Shown here: positions 6,510-64,000 of the stretch, in pieces
Position numbering within the stretch: the stretch's first letter is position 1
Layout: each line of letters opens with the position of its first letter
NCBI GenBank assembly: GCA_016190825.1
Contig: JACPPV010000032.1
Span: 1 to 64,000, forward strand
Source of the DNA: Chloroflexota bacterium
GTDB lineage: Bacteria; Chloroflexota; Dehalococcoidia; Dehalococcoidales; UBA2162
Length of the DNA stretch: 64,000 bases
Direction of reading: 5' to 3'
The notes under the pieces: generated by a model
Seen by the model: the letters and a program-made list of their open reading frames with translations, nothing else
What the model was told of the DNA's origin: nothing
The model's database searches: none
Made by a program: the position numbers and the translations under genes

Positions 6510-6555
6510 GGTAGCCCCGCATTGGAAGCATTCCGGACTGGTCTTTGAGAAGAAG
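6510..6555. repeat. Direct repeat copy 1 (ggtagccccgcattggaagcattccggactggtctttgagaagaag)
   Basis: Near-identical to 7442-7486; flanks ORF 6583-7275. Confidence 0.85.
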
Positions 6556-7441: not shown

Positions 7442-7486
7442 GGTAGCCCGCATTGGAAGCATTCCGAACTGGTGTTTGAGAAGAAG
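7442..7486. repeat. Direct repeat copy 2 of 6510-6555
   Basis: ggtagcccgcattggaagcattccgaactggtgtttgagaagaag. Confidence 0.85.
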
Positions 7487-22855: not shown

Positions 22856-22929
22856 GAGGCACCTCCCCGCTGACTAATAGCTTCGAGGAATCAACTGTCC
22901 AGAAAGTTTGCACTACTCTCCTTAATGGT

Positions 22930-22983
22930 TCTCTTTCTCTCCCCACCCCCACCCTCATCTCCGCCTTGAACGTGCCGCACGGT
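22930..22983 (-). repeat. Degenerate third copy of the radA 3' end
   Basis: Reverse complement ACGTTCAAGGCGGAGATGAGGGTGGGGGTGGGGAGAG encodes TFKAEMRVGVGRE versus radA TLREAIRVGVGRG. Confidence 0.6.
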
Positions 22984-23238
22984 CTAAGCCTGGTACGCAT
23001 CACCTCTTGACCTCACCCGGTAGATGGTGACCACCTTTGCTTCATCGTCAATCTGGTAAAGGATGCGGTAGTCACCCATGCGAATCCGGTAGCCCTCTCT
23101 GGCGGTCAGTTTTTTGGCGCCGGGCGGACGGGAGTTCTCAGCCAGACCGGCGATAACCCTGTTGACTCTCTCCCGGATTTGCGTCGGAAGTCTCCCAACT
23201 TGCCGGTGGGAGCTGCGGCTAACCTCCAGCCGGTACAC
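22984..23238 (-). CDS. RelE/ParE-superfamily toxin
   Basis: VYRLEVSRSSHRQVGRLPTQIRERVNRVIAGLAENSRPPGAKKLTAREGYRIRMGDYRILYQID; probable GTG start overlapping the antitoxin. Confidence 0.85.
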   Translation of the reverse strand: MYRLEVSRSSHRQVGRLPTQIRERVNRVIAGLAENSRPPGAKKLTAREGYRIRMGDYRILYQIDDEAKVVTIYRVRSRGDAYQA

Positions 23239-23506
23239 GGCTTTTCCGATGTTTCGCCTTGGCGAGGTGCTCCTCAAAGGGCATCGTTGGCTCTCTGTCA
23301 AGCTCAGCCTGAAGCAGATCGGCGGCATCGGACAGGTCTTCCAGGCGTTCTATCATATCGTTATACTGGTCAATGCCGATTAGGACGGCCTTGACCCGGC
23401 TGCCGGAGACTATCAGATAAGGTTCTCCGCCTGCCGAGACCTCATCCACAAGCTGCGTCAGTTTTGGCCGGGCCTCCGCCATACCGATTGATTTGATCTT
23501 AGTCAT
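23219..23506 (-). CDS. Phd/YefM-type antitoxin
   Basis: MTKIKSIGMAEARPKLTQLVDEVSAGGEPYLIVSGSRVKAVLIGIDQYNDMIERLED. Confidence 0.88.
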   Translation of the reverse strand: MTKIKSIGMAEARPKLTQLVDEVSAGGEPYLIVSGSRVKAVLIGIDQYNDMIERLEDLSDAADLLQAELDREPTMPFEEHLAKAKHRKSRVPAGG

Positions 23507-23620
23507 AGCGCTCTCCTTAATGGATACATTAACATTAATATTAATGTTTGGCAAGTTGTTTATGGGCAGCTACCCGTGGAACTGCCATGCCGGCCACCGA
23601 GCCAGAATCCAAGTGGGGTG

Positions 23621-23677
23621 GGAGTAGATTCCCGCTGGAGTTTACCCCTGCGAAGTCAGGGGCGGGAATGACAATAG
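23621..23677. repeat. Dispersed hairpin repeat copy 1
   Basis: ggagtagattcccgctggagtttacccctgcgaagtcaggggcgggaatgacaatag; homologous to 63621-63678. Confidence 0.85.
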
Positions 23678-23714
23678 AGGTGCGGAAATAGCACCTCACG
23701 CAATCTGTTCTTTT

Positions 23715-23777
23715 CCGCTGTCTCTCCCCACCCCCACCCGTATCGCCTCCCGCAGGGTGCTGACAGGGTACGACCTT
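23715..23777 (-). repeat. Second copy of the radA 3' end
   Basis: Reverse complement encodes YPVSTLREAIRVGVGRDSGKEQIA*, closely matching radA IPAATLREAIRVGVGRGKEASASE*. Confidence 0.85.
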
Positions 23778-23978
23778 TCACACGGTCTCAAACTGGAGGC
23801 GCTTCAGTTCCTCGGGCGGAATACGCTTCTTAATACCAAGAATCTCAATGCCCACCGCCTGCCCATTGGCGTTATAGTCCACGATAATGCCGGGCTGAAC
23901 TTCCTCGGATTCGACTATCTGGCTTTCGTCGAGGCGGAAATACAGGGCATCGCTGGACTCATCTATCTTGATTCTCAT
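23778..23978 (-). CDS. DUF2283 family protein
   Basis: MRIKIDESSDALYFRLDESQIVESEEVQPGIIVDYNANGQAVGIEILGIKKR; start moved from 24161. Confidence 0.88.
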   Translation of the reverse strand: MRIKIDESSDALYFRLDESQIVESEEVQPGIIVDYNANGQAVGIEILGIKKRIPPEELKRLQFETV

Positions 23979-24253
23979 ATGTTCCTCCATTCCCGGCGGT
24001 CGAAAAACAATGTGACAATAATCATCGGTGACTCGCCTTCTTGCCTGGTCACCACTCTCAGCACGCGCCCGCCATGCTCCCGTATCGGCTTTAGATAGTG
24101 GACAGTGCCGTCTTCGTTTCGCTCTGTCCGCATCGGCTCCGCTATCGTGCGCTCGACCCACTCCAGGGCTATGTTACGCTCTTTGAGCATGTCCTCTGCG
24201 TGAGCGGTGAAGTTTAGCTCTATTATCAGCGTCTCCTGAGTTAATTTTACCAT
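23975..24253 (-). CDS. DUF4258 family protein
   Basis: LNFTAHAEDMLKERNIALEWVERTIAEPMRTERNEDGTVHYLKPI; 4-nt overlap with the DUF2283 ORF. Confidence 0.85.
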   Translation of the reverse strand: MVKLTQETLIIELNFTAHAEDMLKERNIALEWVERTIAEPMRTERNEDGTVHYLKPIREHGGRVLRVVTRQEGESPMIIVTLFFDRREWRNI

Positions 24254-24283
24254 AAAGCGGGTGGCTACACTGAATTAAGTCCG

Positions 24284-25678
24284 TCATTCACTTGCGCTTG
24301 CTTCCTTCCCTCTCCCCACCCCCACCCTTATCGCCTCCCGGAGTGTGGCGGCGGGGATAAGCTCGATTTCGGGGGGAGCGTCAATCCGGGCATTGGCCTT
24401 GGGAATGATGCAGCGTTTGAAGCCAAGGCGGGCGGCTTCGTTCACCCGGCGGTCAAGCTGGGGGACGGCTCTTAGCTCGCCACCCAGCCCCACCTCCCCC
24501 ACCACCGCCATGTGCGGGTCAACAACGGCATCGCGGAAGCTGGAGGCAATTGCCATGGCAATGCCCAAATCCGCCGCCGGCTCTTCGATTCTCAGCCCGC
24601 CGGTGACGTTGACCAGGACATCCTGGTTACCCAGCTTCAGGCCGGCCCTTCTGGATAGCACGGCGGAGATCAGGAGCAGTCGATTGAAGTCCACCCCGCT
24701 GGCGGTGCGCCGGGGTTGCCCGAAGCTCGTTGGATTGGTTAGTGCCTGTATCTCCACCAGCAGAGGGCGGGTGCCCTCGAAGGTGGGCACTACCACCGAG
24801 CCAATGGTCTCCTCACCTCTTTGGGACATGAACGCCTGTGATGGATTTGCCACTTCGACCAGACCCTCCGATTTCATCTCGAAGACGCCGATTTCGTTGG
24901 TAGAGCCGAAGCGGTTCTTCACACTCCGCAGTAGGCGATAAGGACTGAAAGGCTCCCCCTCCAGGTAAATTACAACATCGACGATGTGCTCCAGGACGCG
25001 AGGCCCGGCAATGGCGCCGTCCTTGGTCACGTGGCCCACCAGGAAGATTGGCACGTTCCGCGTTTTTGCCCAGTGCATCAGCCTTGAGACGCACTCCCGC
25101 ACCTGTGTGACGCTGCCGGAAGAGGAATCCACTTGAGGCGCGTACACCGCTTGCACCGAATCAACCACAACCAGGCCGGGGGTAAGTGTTTCGACCTGGT
25201 CCAGGATGACTTCGAGGTTGGTCTCCGACAGGAGGTAAAGGTTTTCTCCCCTTATCCCCAGCCGCTCCGCCCGCAGCTTGATCTGGCGCTCTGTCTCTTC
25301 CCCCGAGACGTAAACCACTGTACTACCCCCTTGCGCCATCAAAGCGGAAACCTGGAGCAGCAGAGTTGATTTGCCGATGCCCGGGTCGCCCCCGATGAGC
25401 ACCACCGAGCCCGGCACCAGCCCCCCTCCCAGCACCCGGTTAAATTCATTGATCGCCAGTGGCAGCCGGTCTCGGGCTTCGATGGAGACCCCCGACAGTT
25501 CTAGTGGCGGGCTCAGGGATGCATCCGGCTGAAATGCCGCTGAAACGACGACCGTTTTTTCGACCAGGCTATTCCACTGCTGGCACTCGGGGCAGCGGCC
25601 CAACCATTTGAGGCTCTCCTTGCCACATTCCTGGCAGACAAAGATGGCGCGGCTTTCCGGGCGGTTGCTTCTGACCAT
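24284..25678 (-). CDS. radA: DNA repair protein RadA (Sms)
   Basis: FVCQECGKESLKWLGRCPECQQWNSL zinc motif; GGDPGIGKSTLLLQ; KNRFGSTNEIGVFEM. Confidence 0.97.
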   Translation of the reverse strand: MVRSNRPESRAIFVCQECGKESLKWLGRCPECQQWNSLVEKTVVVSAAFQPDASLSPPLELSGVSIEARDRLPLAINEFNRVLGGGLVPGSVVLIGGDPGIGKSTLLLQVSALMAQGGSTVVYVSGEETERQIKLRAERLGIRGENLYLLSETNLEVILDQVETLTPGLVVVDSVQAVYAPQVDSSSGSVTQVRECVSRLMHWAKTRNVPIFLVGHVTKDGAIAGPRVLEHIVDVVIYLEGEPFSPYRLLRSVKNRFGSTNEIGVFEMKSEGLVEVANPSQAFMSQRGEETIGSVVVPTFEGTRPLLVEIQALTNPTSFGQPRRTASGVDFNRLLLISAVLSRRAGLKLGNQDVLVNVTGGLRIEEPAADLGIAMAIASSFRDAVVDPHMAVVGEVGLGGELRAVPQLDRRVNEAARLGFKRCIIPKANARIDAPPEIELIPAATLREAIRVGVGRGKEASASE

Positions 25679-59833: not shown

Positions 59834-61192
59834 CTACTCCGTGCCTTCTTTTTGCGGGCTATCGTCTTTATATCTCAGCGGCCACCAGCTTTTAAGCCGC
59901 TCAAGTACCTGCTTCTCGAAACCCTGGTCGCTCGGCGTGTAGAAACGCTTGCCCTGGAGAGATTCCGGCAGATTCTGCTGCTCGACGAAATGGCCCGGGA
60001 AATTGTGGGCATATTTGTAGTCCTTGCCGTAGCCGATCCCTTTCATCAGCCCCGTAATCGGATTACGCAGATGGAGCGGCACAACATCGCTGGCACCTTT
60101 TCTTATCTCCTCTTGCACCTTCGAGTAGGCCGCGTAGAGGGAGTTACTCTTCGGGGCTTGAGCCAGGTAGACCACTGCCTGAGCCAAAGCAAGGCTGCCC
60201 TCCGGCATGCCGATGAAGTGGACTGCCTGCTGGGCTGCCATCGCCACCACCAGCGCCTGCGGGTCCGCCATACCGACGTCCTCCGAGGCAAAGCGCACCA
60301 GCCTGCGGGCGATATACAGTGGGTCCTCGCCCGCCTCAATCATCACCGCCAACCAGTATAGACCGGCATCCGGATCTGAGCCTCGCAGGGACTTGTGCAA
60401 AGCAGAGATCACATCGTAGTGGCGGTCGGCGGCGCGGTCGTAGCGCAAAGCCCGTCGCTGGATGGCATCCTCGATTGTCTCCAGGGCAATGCGGCGCGCG
60501 CCTTCAGCGTCAGGGGCGGTGTTCATCGCGGCCAGCTCCAACGCGGTAAGGGCGATGCGCGCATCATGGTCGGCCATGGTGACCAGGTGGTTCGTGGCGG
60601 CTTCTTCCAGCACCACATTCATTTCGCCCAGGCCATATTCTTTATCATGCAAAGCCCTCGCAATTATGCGGCGCATATCGCCATCGGAAAGGGCATTGAG
60701 GACAAACACCCGGCAACGGGACAACAGTGGTGAATTGACCTCAAAAGATGGATTTTCAGTGGTGGCGCCGATAAAGGTGACGGTGCCGTCCTCGACAAAG
60801 GGCAGCACGGCGTCCTGCTGCGACTTATTGAAACGGTGGATTTCATCAATGAAGAGGATGGTCTTGTGCCCGTAGAGCTTGCGGCGCTCCTTGGCGTCCT
60901 GGATAACCCGGCGCAGGTCGGCCACGCCGGCGGTGACGGCGCTGAGGGCATCGAAGTGGGACTTGGTCATCCGGGCGATGATGTAGGCGAGGGTGGTCTT
61001 GCCGCTGCCCGGCGGCCCCCAGAGAATCATGGAGGGAAGCTGGCCGGTCTCGATCGCCTTTCTCAGCACCCGCCCTGGTCCGATGATATGTTCCTGGCCC
61101 ACGAAGTCTTCAAGCGTAGCCGGCCGCATCCGCGCCGCCAGCGGCTCGTCTTTTTTCTTCTCCTGTTCGAAATGGTGCTCAAAAAGGTCCAT
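59834..61192 (-). CDS. rarA: Replication-associated recombination protein A (RarA/MgsA AAA+ ATPase)
   Basis: MDLFEHHFEQEKKKDEPLAARMRPATLEDFVGQEHIIGPGRVLRKAI; LWGPPGSGKTTLA. Confidence 0.97.
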   Translation of the reverse strand: MDLFEHHFEQEKKKDEPLAARMRPATLEDFVGQEHIIGPGRVLRKAIETGQLPSMILWGPPGSGKTTLAYIIARMTKSHFDALSAVTAGVADLRRVIQDAKERRKLYGHKTILFIDEIHRFNKSQQDAVLPFVEDGTVTFIGATTENPSFEVNSPLLSRCRVFVLNALSDGDMRRIIARALHDKEYGLGEMNVVLEEAATNHLVTMADHDARIALTALELAAMNTAPDAEGARRIALETIEDAIQRRALRYDRAADRHYDVISALHKSLRGSDPDAGLYWLAVMIEAGEDPLYIARRLVRFASEDVGMADPQALVVAMAAQQAVHFIGMPEGSLALAQAVVYLAQAPKSNSLYAAYSKVQEEIRKGASDVVPLHLRNPITGLMKGIGYGKDYKYAHNFPGHFVEQQNLPESLQGKRFYTPSDQGFEKQVLERLKSWWPLRYKDDSPQKEGTE

Positions 61193-61194
61193 AA
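61175..61194. repeat. 20-bp direct repeat covering the rarA start, copy 1
   Basis: gtgctcaaaaaggtccataa, identical to 61780-61799. Confidence 0.95.
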
Positions 61195-61195
61195 C

Positions 61196-61465
61196 TTAGA
61201 ACAAGTCCTTCAGCCGGTCGTAGGTGTCTTCGGAACGACGTGCGATTTTCACTACGGCTATGCGCCGCTCTCTGTCAAGGATTGCATAAATGACTCGCCA
61301 TTCGCCTACTCTAATACGATGTATCACGCCGCTTAATTTCTTGACTCCTATTGGCCGCGGGTTATTCTCAAGTTCACCGATGACGGCATCCAGACGCTTC
61401 TGGTCATTTGCAGCTAGTTTTTCGAACTCACGTCGGGCGCGCGGAGTGAACCCGACCTCATACAT
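61196..61465 (-). CDS. RelE/ParE-superfamily toxin
   Basis: MYEVGFTPRARREFEKLAANDQKRLDAVIGELENNPRPIGVKKLSGVIHRIRVGEWRVIYAILD. Confidence 0.9.
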   Translation of the reverse strand: MYEVGFTPRARREFEKLAANDQKRLDAVIGELENNPRPIGVKKLSGVIHRIRVGEWRVIYAILDRERRIAVVKIARRSEDTYDRLKDLF

Positions 61466-61691
61466 TCACTTTTTTCCGCCGGCGCACTTCGGCTAAACTG
61501 ACTGCCGAAGCTGGATTGGCCAAATACTTTTTCAGTTCTTCCTCGCCATCACGGATATCCTCGATATCTTCCCCATAGACCGCTTCCACCGCACGCCTGA
61601 CTAATTCAGCGATTGAAGTATTGGCTTCAAAAGCCAGCTTTCTAAGCCCCTCGTGTGCTTCCTCCGATAGGTAAATCATCGTTCTTTTCAT
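61458..61691 (-). CDS. Ribbon-helix-helix-type antitoxin
   Basis: MKRTMIYLSEEAHEGLRKLAFEANTSIAELVRRAVEAVYGED; 8-nt overlap with toxin; start moved from 61787. Confidence 0.85.
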   Translation of the reverse strand: MKRTMIYLSEEAHEGLRKLAFEANTSIAELVRRAVEAVYGEDIEDIRDGEEELKKYLANPASAVSLAEVRRRKKVNV

Positions 61692-61779
61692 TGGTTTCTC
61701 CACATCATTTTTTAGATATTGTAACATATATATGTCATAATATCTATATGCCACTTGCTGTCTTCTTCTCCCCAAACTC

Positions 61780-61799
61780 GTGCTCAAAAAGGTCCATAA
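61780..61799. repeat. 20-bp direct repeat copy 2, degenerate rarA 5' end
   Basis: Minus strand ATGGACCTTTTTGAGCACGAGTTTGGGGAGAAGAAG encodes MDLFEHEFGEKK, then a stop after 17 codons. Confidence 0.9.
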
Positions 61800-61808
61800 G
61801 ATGCCTTC

Positions 61809-62987
61809 CTATTTGGGCGGAGCCCAATGCCCAGCCTCATCATAGTATGGGTCTTTCGGGAAGCCACAGGCGTTCCAAATCGAATCAAAGCATAGTTTGA
61901 GAACGGATTCTGCTTTAGCGTCAAAAGTTTCGATGGTCGCTTCAGGTAACTGTAAGACATCTCTGTCAATGGCATAATCATCATCGACGAAGCGATGCCG
62001 CACACCCATTTTGTAGCCCTTTACTCCCACCAAAGTCAAGAACACCCAGATATATGGCTCAATACCCAATTTGTTTAACACAGAGCAATATCTCGTAAGT
62101 GCCTTGATGAGTTCCTCTTCGTAAGCGACGCTGGGTATTATTAGTGACTCACCAGCACCCGAATAAGGCCTCAAAAGCCTAGTATCCACGGCCTCAATAA
62201 TTCCATTTCTGAAAAGCTGGACATACGAGGATGATATTCCTTCCTGCACTCTGAAGTTGGTCAAAAAGCCATCCAGGTTATATCTGTTGTCCCATCCAAG
62301 CGCATATATCGGTGGCATTGTATCGGGATGAGAGGATATTATGGTTAGATCGTAGCTCTGACCGGGATTGAACGAAACTAACGGAATCAGATGCAGGATT
62401 ATCTTCGCGCTGCCACTCAGGGGCACCTGTATTTCGTCTGCGAGTATCTTTGATATTCTATCTATCCTGAAGTTTCTGATTCTATCTGTTATGGTTTCTG
62501 ACAGATTGAAAGCTACGCGTAGCTCTCCAACGTCAAGAGCATATTTGCCGTTTGAACCTCTGGAATAAAACTTATCATGGCTTCCGTAAGTGACTCTATG
62601 TGGACTATTCCAACTTTTCGCAACCCTGACTAGCACAATGATTTTTGAGTTTGTTAGGGGGACGGACTTTAGACTTACACCTGAGATTCTCGGTTCTATC
62701 CCGCTCCGAATCATGCTTTCAAGTCTGAGAATTTCGCCGTCGGCATCGGCACCGCTTAAACCTTCCAATAATTTTGGGGTTCCATTTTCCGCATTCATGC
62801 CATATATTAGGTACCCGCCGCTTGCATTAGCAAACGAAGAAACATCGGCAAGAAATTCTTTCTTATCAGCATCCGAATTATTCGGGAGGGATCGTTTATA
62901 CTCTACAGTTTTCCCTTCCGGCACCGAATTATCTATCAAAGCCTGCAAATCCTGCTCTGCAATTTTGTCAATATCTTGTTGAATCAT
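61809..62987 (-). CDS. AlbA_2/Schlafen-like ATP-binding domain protein
   Basis: PEGKTVEYKRSLPNNSDADKKEFLADVSSFANASGGYLIYGM. Confidence 0.88.
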   Translation of the reverse strand: MIQQDIDKIAEQDLQALIDNSVPEGKTVEYKRSLPNNSDADKKEFLADVSSFANASGGYLIYGMNAENGTPKLLEGLSGADADGEILRLESMIRSGIEPRISGVSLKSVPLTNSKIIVLVRVAKSWNSPHRVTYGSHDKFYSRGSNGKYALDVGELRVAFNLSETITDRIRNFRIDRISKILADEIQVPLSGSAKIILHLIPLVSFNPGQSYDLTIISSHPDTMPPIYALGWDNRYNLDGFLTNFRVQEGISSSYVQLFRNGIIEAVDTRLLRPYSGAGESLIIPSVAYEEELIKALTRYCSVLNKLGIEPYIWVFLTLVGVKGYKMGVRHRFVDDDYAIDRDVLQLPEATIETFDAKAESVLKLCFDSIWNACGFPKDPYYDEAGHWAPPK

Positions 62988-62990
62988 ACC

Positions 62991-63560
62991 CTACCCCACA
63001 ATAACATCTTCCAGCCTGCGCTTGGGGACGTGGTGGACACCATTGTCATCGCGCCAGTAGGCGGTCTTGCCGTCGGGGCCAACGGTCTCGATTACCACCG
63101 TTTCCTTTGGCTTGCCCAGTGCCAGCACCAGGAGTATCTCATATTTCTCCGGGATATTCAGGCTCGCCATCAGTTCCGGTCTCTTCGCTGAGCCAAGCAT
63201 GACGCCGCCCAACCCCTTCTCCACCGCCCCCAGCAGGATGCTCTGCGCCGCGATGCCGTGGTCGCAGCCGAAGTTCTGGGTCGCCTCCTTATCGCCAAGA
63301 ATAATGATATAGCCTGAGGGGCGTTCTCCTTCCGCCGGGCCGGACCAGTTGAGCTGACGGGCAAAGGTGAGGTGCTTGAATATTTTGGCGTTCCTTTCCG
63401 GCTCACAGGAAAGCATGAATCTTAACGCCTGCCGGTTTGTGCTGGATGCCGAGCATCTCGCCAGGTCAATGAGTTCCTTCAGGGTTTTCTCATCAATCCG
63501 ATGGCTCTCATCAAAACGGCGATAGCTCCTGTTCCTGATTACCAGGTCTCTTAGTGTCAT
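62991..63560 (-). CDS. Nitroreductase family protein
   Basis: LVIRNRSYRRFDESHRIDEKTLKELIDLARCSASSTNRQALRFML. Confidence 0.92.
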   Translation of the reverse strand: MTLRDLVIRNRSYRRFDESHRIDEKTLKELIDLARCSASSTNRQALRFMLSCEPERNAKIFKHLTFARQLNWSGPAEGERPSGYIIILGDKEATQNFGCDHGIAAQSILLGAVEKGLGGVMLGSAKRPELMASLNIPEKYEILLVLALGKPKETVVIETVGPDGKTAYWRDDNGVHHVPKRRLEDVIVG

Positions 63561-63808: not shown

Positions 63809-64000
63809 TTATTTGTATCTCTTCACCTCAAACCGGTAAAGGGTCTTCGGTTCGTCCGGGGAGATGCCGCCCTTGAGGCAGCAGATGTTTATCTGCTCTT
63901 TAACGGTGTCCACGCCATCGAGGTCAGGGAGCAGAAGTCCCCGCCGCCACCCGCACTCCACAATCGCTCCGTATTTTTTGCAGTCCAGGTAGCTTTCATC
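63809..64000 (-). CDS. AMMECR1 domain protein (partial, runs off window)
   Basis: Minus frame [63 protein letters not shown]. Confidence 0.8.

Follow-up and report, generated by a model that had tools for sequence, protein, structure and literature searches.

How did the first codons of rarA come to stand on both sides of a small toxin-antitoxin (TA) pair? This question is raised by one end of the window, i.e., the whole stretch of 64,000 nucleotides analyzed here, which represents contig C27 of a 1.8-Mb assembly in 41 contigs (genome G000). Between 61.2 and 61.8 kb a toxin and an antitoxin gene separate two copies of the rarA start, and we argue below that the TA module probably entered the chromosome at this very point, by a mechanism that we infer from the scars left behind.

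The rarA start and its toxin-antitoxin pair

On the minus strand, the order of genes is AMMECR1-domain gene, nitroreductase, AlbA_2 gene, a copy of the rarA start, RHH antitoxin, RelE-type toxin and rarA. The AMMECR1-domain gene leaves the window and is represented by its C-terminal end (63809..64000), which matches the AMMECR1 query, itself a member of PF01871, at 67.7% over residues 106-167. The nitroreductase-family gene (62991..63560; PF00881, 2.3e-15) belongs to the conserved neighborhood, and the Schlafen/AlbA_2 gene (61809..62987; PF04326, 1.6e-13), which directly precedes rarA in other genomes, stops 11 nt before the distal rarA start. The rarA gene itself (59834..61192), encoding an AAA+ ATPase of the MgsA/RarA type (MgsA_C, 4e-70; AAA_assoc_2, 1.2e-24), is intact and begins MDLFEHHFEQEKKKDE....

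The 20-mer GTGCTCAAAAAGGTCCATAA occurs on the plus strand at 61175-61194 and again at 61780-61799, as stated in a preliminary description of this DNA, and these are its sole two matches in the window: no third one was detected in the 64 kb with up to three mismatches allowed, and shuffled sequences gave an expectation of 0.00. A repeat search placed the 20-mer in a direct repeat of 39 nt with 82% identity (61156-61194 and 61761-61799), the proximal copy of which is the working rarA start. The core is identical at 20 of 20 positions and the adjoining 19 nt only at about 60%, so that similarity to rarA beyond the 20-mer, the absence of which had been named as an argument against a duplicated gene start, is real but short and weak. 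The distal copy opens a stub, MDLFEHEFGEKKTASGI* (61744..61797, minus strand), that scored 25.8 with a profile of rarA starts against a background of at most 12.4.

The toxin (61196..61465, 89 aa) belongs to the RelE/ParE superfamily (ParE_toxin, PF05016, E 3.4e-8, 34.4 bits at a cut-off of 23), and its best solved relative is the RelE toxin 9g12 of the PDB (E 4.5e-8); with the NCBIfam model RelE_StbE it reached 20.7 bits, below the cut-off of 27.9. The antitoxin gene (61458..61691, 77 aa, with an internal ATG at 61691) is located directly upstream, overlaps the toxin start by 8 nt and specifies a protein matching RHH_1 (PF01402, 2e-4, 21.6 bits at a cut-off of 20.5), in addition to weak matches to RelB families below cut-off. 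Judged by its predicted proteins, the feature at 61.2-61.8 kb is a type II TA module with a RelE-type toxin and an RHH antitoxin. PADLOC returned no match for the toxin, the antitoxin or the AlbA_2 protein. An A/T-rich palindrome 5' of the antitoxin (61713..61746, arms 90% complementary), which has counterparts in relatives, likely holds the operator and the -10 element (TACAAT) and overlaps the end of the distal rarA stub. The preliminary description had the intervening 600 bp or so consist of exactly the toxin and the antitoxin; the pair is there, but "exactly" does not hold, as the palindrome belongs to the insert too.

On the side of the intact gene, the toxin stop lies 3 nt before the rarA ATG as described, the TAA at 61196-61198 being separated by GTT from the ATG at 61192. 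There is no Shine-Dalgarno sequence between the two, the nearest AAGGA on our reading falling within the last codons of the toxin, and rarA is therefore presumably read and translated from the TA operon now. A repair gene would thus have become the third gene of a toxin-antitoxin operon.

Repeats are also present in other parts of the window, namely four tandem copies at 691-1664 with a spacing of 261 nt and 66-72% identity to the reference copy, and a 40-nt direct repeat of 95% identity with a spacing of 931 nt (6516-6555 and 7447-7486), close to which another repeat pair is located (6664 and 7533).

Empty sites and recurrence upstream of rarA

Relatives of the window's genome begin at the family level, and no genus mate was found. 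An AlbA_2 homolog is encoded in eight of the 156 genomes of the order, G000 included, and lies just before rarA in four of the seven others. In G087, G048, and G150, representing two other families of the order, AlbA_2 ends 11-12 nt before a single rarA start, a TA pair is absent, and the scan with the rarA-start profile revealed no second start; in G119, a genome outside the profile scan, AlbA_2 ends about 150 nt before the rarA start. Such an empty site at the AlbA_2-rarA junction had been predicted, and it supports the earlier view that the distal copy is the displaced ancestral start, with a reservation about the order of events that stems from G006 (see below). A comparison within one genus is offered by G087 and G089: the two share 94% identity in an upstream gene, presumably RecB-like, as far as its stop, and 95% in rarA from position -10 onward, and between these genes lies AlbA_2 in G087 and the TA pair in G089. 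A 13-nt match, CCATCATGGACAT, ties the working start of G087 to a decayed start directly before the TA pair in G089.

Within the order, rarA was identified in 119 of 156 genomes (E at most 1e-40), and upstream DNA, 97 to 3000 nt each, was read at 109 rarA loci, two of them from G005. The TA family is found directly upstream of rarA at six of these loci (G000, G016, G042, G062, G088, and G089) and 1.5 kb upstream in G002. According to the profile, a second rarA start is present at four of the 109 loci (G000, G062, G039, and G042, the last with two), with scores of 21.6-32.4 in these genomes; scores elsewhere did not exceed 9.6, and the control strand of the 109 loci gave 12.4 at the highest. 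Three of the six TA loci carry a second start, and the hypergeometric probability, calculated by hand, of finding at least three of the four there is about 4e-4. Two further candidates were discarded, i.e., a hit at -102 in G028 that is the genome's own rarA start, and a pair of rarA-like starts on contig C175 of G014, both inside genes that we take to be oxidoreductase-like.

Repeats retained without a TA pair, which the preliminary description had regarded as speaking against its reading, occur at one of the 103 rarA loci lacking an adjacent TA pair, and there they flank other cargo: in G039 (L143), a gene that weakly matches Met_synt_B12 separates rarA from a 160-nt copy of its 5' end (92%), located 992 bp upstream, and the same scar thus accompanies a non-TA cargo. 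The alternative cargo before rarA comprises AlbA_2, TA, a B12-activation-like gene or an HDAC-like gene. A class-level search for the TA family (22 of 393 genomes at E at most 1e-12) added the order AMMECR1-TA-rarA in G437 and G479, with both sides intact. Apart from G000, a pair of the TA family immediately precedes rarA in eight genomes, which represent five further families. G262 carries the stub MMGSLPLFEM before the TA pair and the working start, MDNLPLFEM, after it; the stub follows the rarA start of its own lineage and therefore probably records a separate event. Relic or decayed second rarA starts were found in G006, where rarA has been lost and the TA pair retained between two rarA-like starts, and in G089. 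In G062 (L164, about 4090-4043) a rarA stub is fused to an AMMECR1 C-terminus at TTTGAGGT, a microhomology between both genes, followed by a gene that is presumably HDAC-like, the TA pair and rarA; this looks like an illegitimate joint ahead of imported DNA. Three consecutive rarA starts are present in G042 (L144), one fused in frame to a foreign tail of 26 codons, one abutting the TA promoter and one working, an arrangement that looks like two nested events.

The reservation about the order of events arises because G006, a member of the same family as G000, has rarA stub, TA pair and rarA start without AlbA_2. In the lineage of the window, AlbA_2 may have come after the TA pair, bringing or renewing the distal start. 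The TA-rarA block would then be old in the family, AlbA_2 would later have recombined together with a rarA start at the existing stub, and the distal copy would be the tail of this import. The left boundary in G006 is indeed similar (GCAA..GGCATATAGA), the TA sequences of G000, G002, and G006 group together with a support of 0.96-0.98, and the distribution of AlbA_2, which so often adjoins rarA, is patchy. A stub dating from the split of G000 and G006 should, on the other hand, fall below 20/20 identity unless gene conversion intervened, and loss of AlbA_2 in G006 is equally simple. We consider a later arrival of AlbA_2 possible, if on balance unlikely; it concerns the order of events and overlaps with both one-sided homology and target duplication as mechanisms of entry.

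Duplicated gene ends at radA and other loci

The preliminary description saw a mirror image at the radA locus, at the opposite gene end, and this proved correct. Two tandem TA pairs of different families (22926-24362) are located 3' of radA (sms; 24284..25678; TIGR00416, 1.3e-181), and a copy of the radA 3' end follows each of them, all features residing on the minus strand. The first pair consists of a DUF4258 protein (23975..24253; PF14076) and a DUF2283 protein (23778..23990; PF10049), which we take to be its toxin and antitoxin, respectively, and is followed by copy 1 (23711..23774, STLREAIRVGVGR...). The second pair comprises a Phd/YefM antitoxin (23219..23506; PF02604, TIGR01552) and a RelE/ParE-type toxin (22984..23223, start approximate; PF05016, 6.3e-10), followed by copy 2 (22926..22989; core of 19/19 nt, E 1e-6). 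All 19 relatives scored were closer to copy 1, the stub nearest radA, than to the intact end, six of the 25 relatives given having been dropped as their tail was missed by the motif filter. Among 30 radA loci, that of G060 (L270) carries a radA 3'-end copy about 1 kb downstream of the gene, with other genes between and no TA pair identified.

Further core genes are affected. In G252, G296, and G305 an intact AMMECR1 gene is followed by the TA pair and, after the toxin, by a second AMMECR1 C-terminus; the three scars stem from one family (f57) and possibly represent one event. A short form of this arrangement is present in G495. In G410 a more distant member of the TA family lies between trpG and trpD, named from Pfam matches to GATase and to the glycosyl transferase family 3 N-terminal domain, and is preceded by a 62-nt duplicate of the trpD start. 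Other RelE-type pairs are accompanied by duplicated ends of queA (3', G021), of ispG (3') and purD (5') in G000 (L338 and L339 on contigs C10 and C30), and of a flavin-reductase-like gene (5', G014, L347). The latter gene is without an NCBIfam match and owes its name to our reading of the sequence; three of its starts surround the TA pair, and the two nearest to the pair form a 147-nt repeat. In G000, four of the five RelE-type loci have a duplicated gene end, i.e., rarA 5', radA 3', ispG 3', and purD 5'.

A census yielded gene-end duplications at 12 of 66 TA loci, which are not independent in that G252, G296, and G305 perhaps reflect one event. Set A, comprising the TA family of the window and its distant members, contributed eight of 24 loci with a flank repeat scoring at least 14.5, all of them gene ends. 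Set B (23 tested of 24) gave one gene end and three REP-like repeats, and set C (19 tested of 20) three gene ends and one antitoxin copy. Random windows reached at least 14.5 in 25 of 3000 cases and at least 17 in 5 of 1500, the control at 14.5 being conservative since its windows still held three TA loci (L034, L036, and L053). The radA pairs of the window lie outside the census sets, and G006, G089, G173, and G275, the stubs of which are decayed or were read by eye, outside the 12; L061 (no toxin match) and L354 (too short) were left out altogether. Several repeats were not counted as gene ends: direct repeats beside the TA pair at L053, L060, and L062 that look like dispersed intergenic (REP-like) elements, the repeat at L050 (score 15.0), and that at L352 (G057), where the start of the antitoxin itself is duplicated beyond the toxin and the TA pair is inserted into or beside its own kind.

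Routes of entry and comparison with known systems

The route that we regard as probable combines homologous recombination in a neighboring gene with an illegitimate joint at the opposite end. A related bacterium would supply DNA in which a TA pair is joined to a neighboring core gene, here the pair plus the 5' part of rarA. Homologous recombination inside the core gene would let the TA-gene junction arrive intact. The other end would be joined illegitimately, homology being slight or absent, to a point just within the copy of that gene already present in the recipient, and the displaced native gene end would remain beyond the TA pair as a stub. The pair would then be kept, since loss of a type II TA pair is costly (addiction).

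This route is supported by the empty sites, the recurrence at rarA, the order AMMECR1-TA-rarA in G437 and G479, the census and the four of five loci in G000, and the fusion of G062 looks like an illegitimate far end. One-sided homology is favored over simple target duplication because it is the junction of the TA pair with the intact gene that is conserved, the stub lying opposite, and this in both directions. Exactly 21 nt separate the last aligned toxin residue from the rarA ATG in G016, G042, G062, G088, and G089 (four families), and the stubs of G042 and G089 reside on the antitoxin side, opposite the conserved toxin-rarA junction; in family f57, the TA promoter directly adjoins AMMECR1, the stub of which comes after the toxin stop. 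The same preference is derived from radA, where it is the stub and not the intact end that matches relatives. With regard to timing, the TA pairs of G042 and G089 are 80% identical and thereby exceed RarA (73%) and RadA (72%), so the pair probably moved after the two lineages had split.

Other observations count against the mechanism. Nine of 11 relatives are closer to the intact ispG end than to the stub, and the donor model is not supported by these ends, a result that could be due to stub decay or to an opposite origin. The stubs of G000, G039, and G042 are each nearer to the working start of their own genome than to any of the other 108 starts, a pattern that target duplication or a very close donor would explain as well as gene replacement does, and the step in G000 from a 20/20 core to the less conserved 19 nt has the appearance of a crossover point or of gene conversion. 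In G087, G088, and G089, where a chimera was expected, sliding identity along rarA revealed no imported tract beyond the first codons, and no stub is visible in G016, G437, and G479.

The mutual best match of stub and working start among the 109 (G000, G039, and copy 1 of G042) and the G000 core, which resembles a crossover core in being flanked by divergent sequence, would also agree with an insertion accompanied by long target duplication, or with Campbell-type integration of a small circle carrying the TA pair and one gene end. Both copies would then be native, or hybrids crossed over in the short core, and a donor gene would not be needed. According to PMC3874152, restriction-modification (RM) genes insert with long, variable duplications of about 100 bp. 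Such an event leaves unexplained why five genomes from four families have the same TA-gene spacing on the intact side and why the radA stub, and not the intact radA end, resembles relatives; moreover, the repeats, 17 to about 160 nt long, share no common core, and the ORFs listed around rarA and radA of the window contain no integrase gene. The latter finding and the variation of the repeats in length and sequence between loci likewise disagree with an integrase-borne island or an integron cassette. In view of the ispG ends, the own-genome matches and the missing tract in G087-G089, we grade one-sided homology as probable and nothing firmer, and target duplication as unlikely.

It appears quite improbable that the stub, instead of being a mere scar, has been kept because it contributes the -35 element of the TA promoter or encodes a leader peptide. 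The TA pairs of G042 (copy 2) and G089 are without the usual -35 element TAGACA/TTGACA, and on our reading their rarA stub provides TTGAGC or CTGAAC at 18 nt from TATAAT; the stub is moreover open in G000 and G006 to the same GGC-ATA-TAG end. Each pattern is, however, confined to two genomes, both roles are predictions from sequence, and stubs at the 3' ends of other genes cannot serve as promoter or leader. Chance likeness of two short sequences can safely be dismissed: the exact repeat measures only 20 nt, but none was expected from shuffles, and the copy is in frame at the start codon, stands behind AlbA_2 as in relatives and recurs in kind at other genes.

Returning to one-sided homology, we tentatively propose, as a generalization about as likely to fail as to hold and perhaps slightly more so, that the TA pairs of Dehalococcoidia are gene-end hitchhikers. 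Welded to the end of a core gene as homology arm and without a transposase or integrase of their own, they would re-enter at rarA, AMMECR1, radA, trpD, queA, ispG, purD, and other core genes, leaving a datable stub each time, and this would be the main arrival route of RelE-type pairs in G000. The duplicated ends span at least eight core genes, and such a spread, together with four of five RelE-type loci in a single genome, is surprising. Movement of chromosomal TA pairs outside recognizable mobile elements has largely been deduced from patchy distribution. The scars described here suggest how selfish TA genes enter chromosomes without a transposon; the sequences directly display the entry point, the native gene end that was displaced and the empty site, at many loci and in many families, and the route of entry thus becomes testable with respect to the anchored side, the length of the foreign tract and an over-representation of TA pairs through addiction.

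Among known systems, RelBE-type II modules resemble the pair of the window in having an RHH antitoxin gene that precedes and overlaps the gene of a RelE-type toxin, with a palindrome ahead of both. They differ in that the pair described here is joined to rarA, the ATG of which follows the toxin stop at a distance of 3 to about 18 nt. The minimal mobile elements of Neisseria likewise present interchangeable genes between the same conserved neighbors; both of their flanks are homologous and a gene-end stub is not expected, whereas here the stub of one flanking gene persists. Homology-facilitated illegitimate recombination, in which one DNA end is joined by homology and the other illegitimately, appears in PMC3240628 as a process studied by experiment in a small number of species; in the present case it is deduced from natural scars, made visible by a selected cargo, the TA pair. 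Scars of duplicated gene ends at TA pairs were not encountered in the titles and abstract openings of a partially covered literature. They do not form a new category, since addiction genes with target duplications are known, and the closest precedent is that of RM genes. Nobusato in 2000 and Furuta in 2010 reportedly described such genes as inserted with long, variable target duplications. According to PMC3874152 and PMC3031569, RM genes, addiction modules too, insert with long and variable target duplications of about 100 bp, and the likeness lies in an addiction module without transposase between direct repeats of the target gene of tens to more than 100 bp. Measured against addiction genes of this kind, direct target repeats on both sides were found at eight of 24 loci of the TA family and its distant members, and the empty site in single copy in G087, G048, and G150, outside the genus of the window. 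Unlike the RM insertions, the elements are type II TA pairs, located at gene ends in the 12 counted cases and distributed over many core genes and families, and the conservation of their junction with the intact gene suggests one-sided homology rather than a simple duplication of the target.
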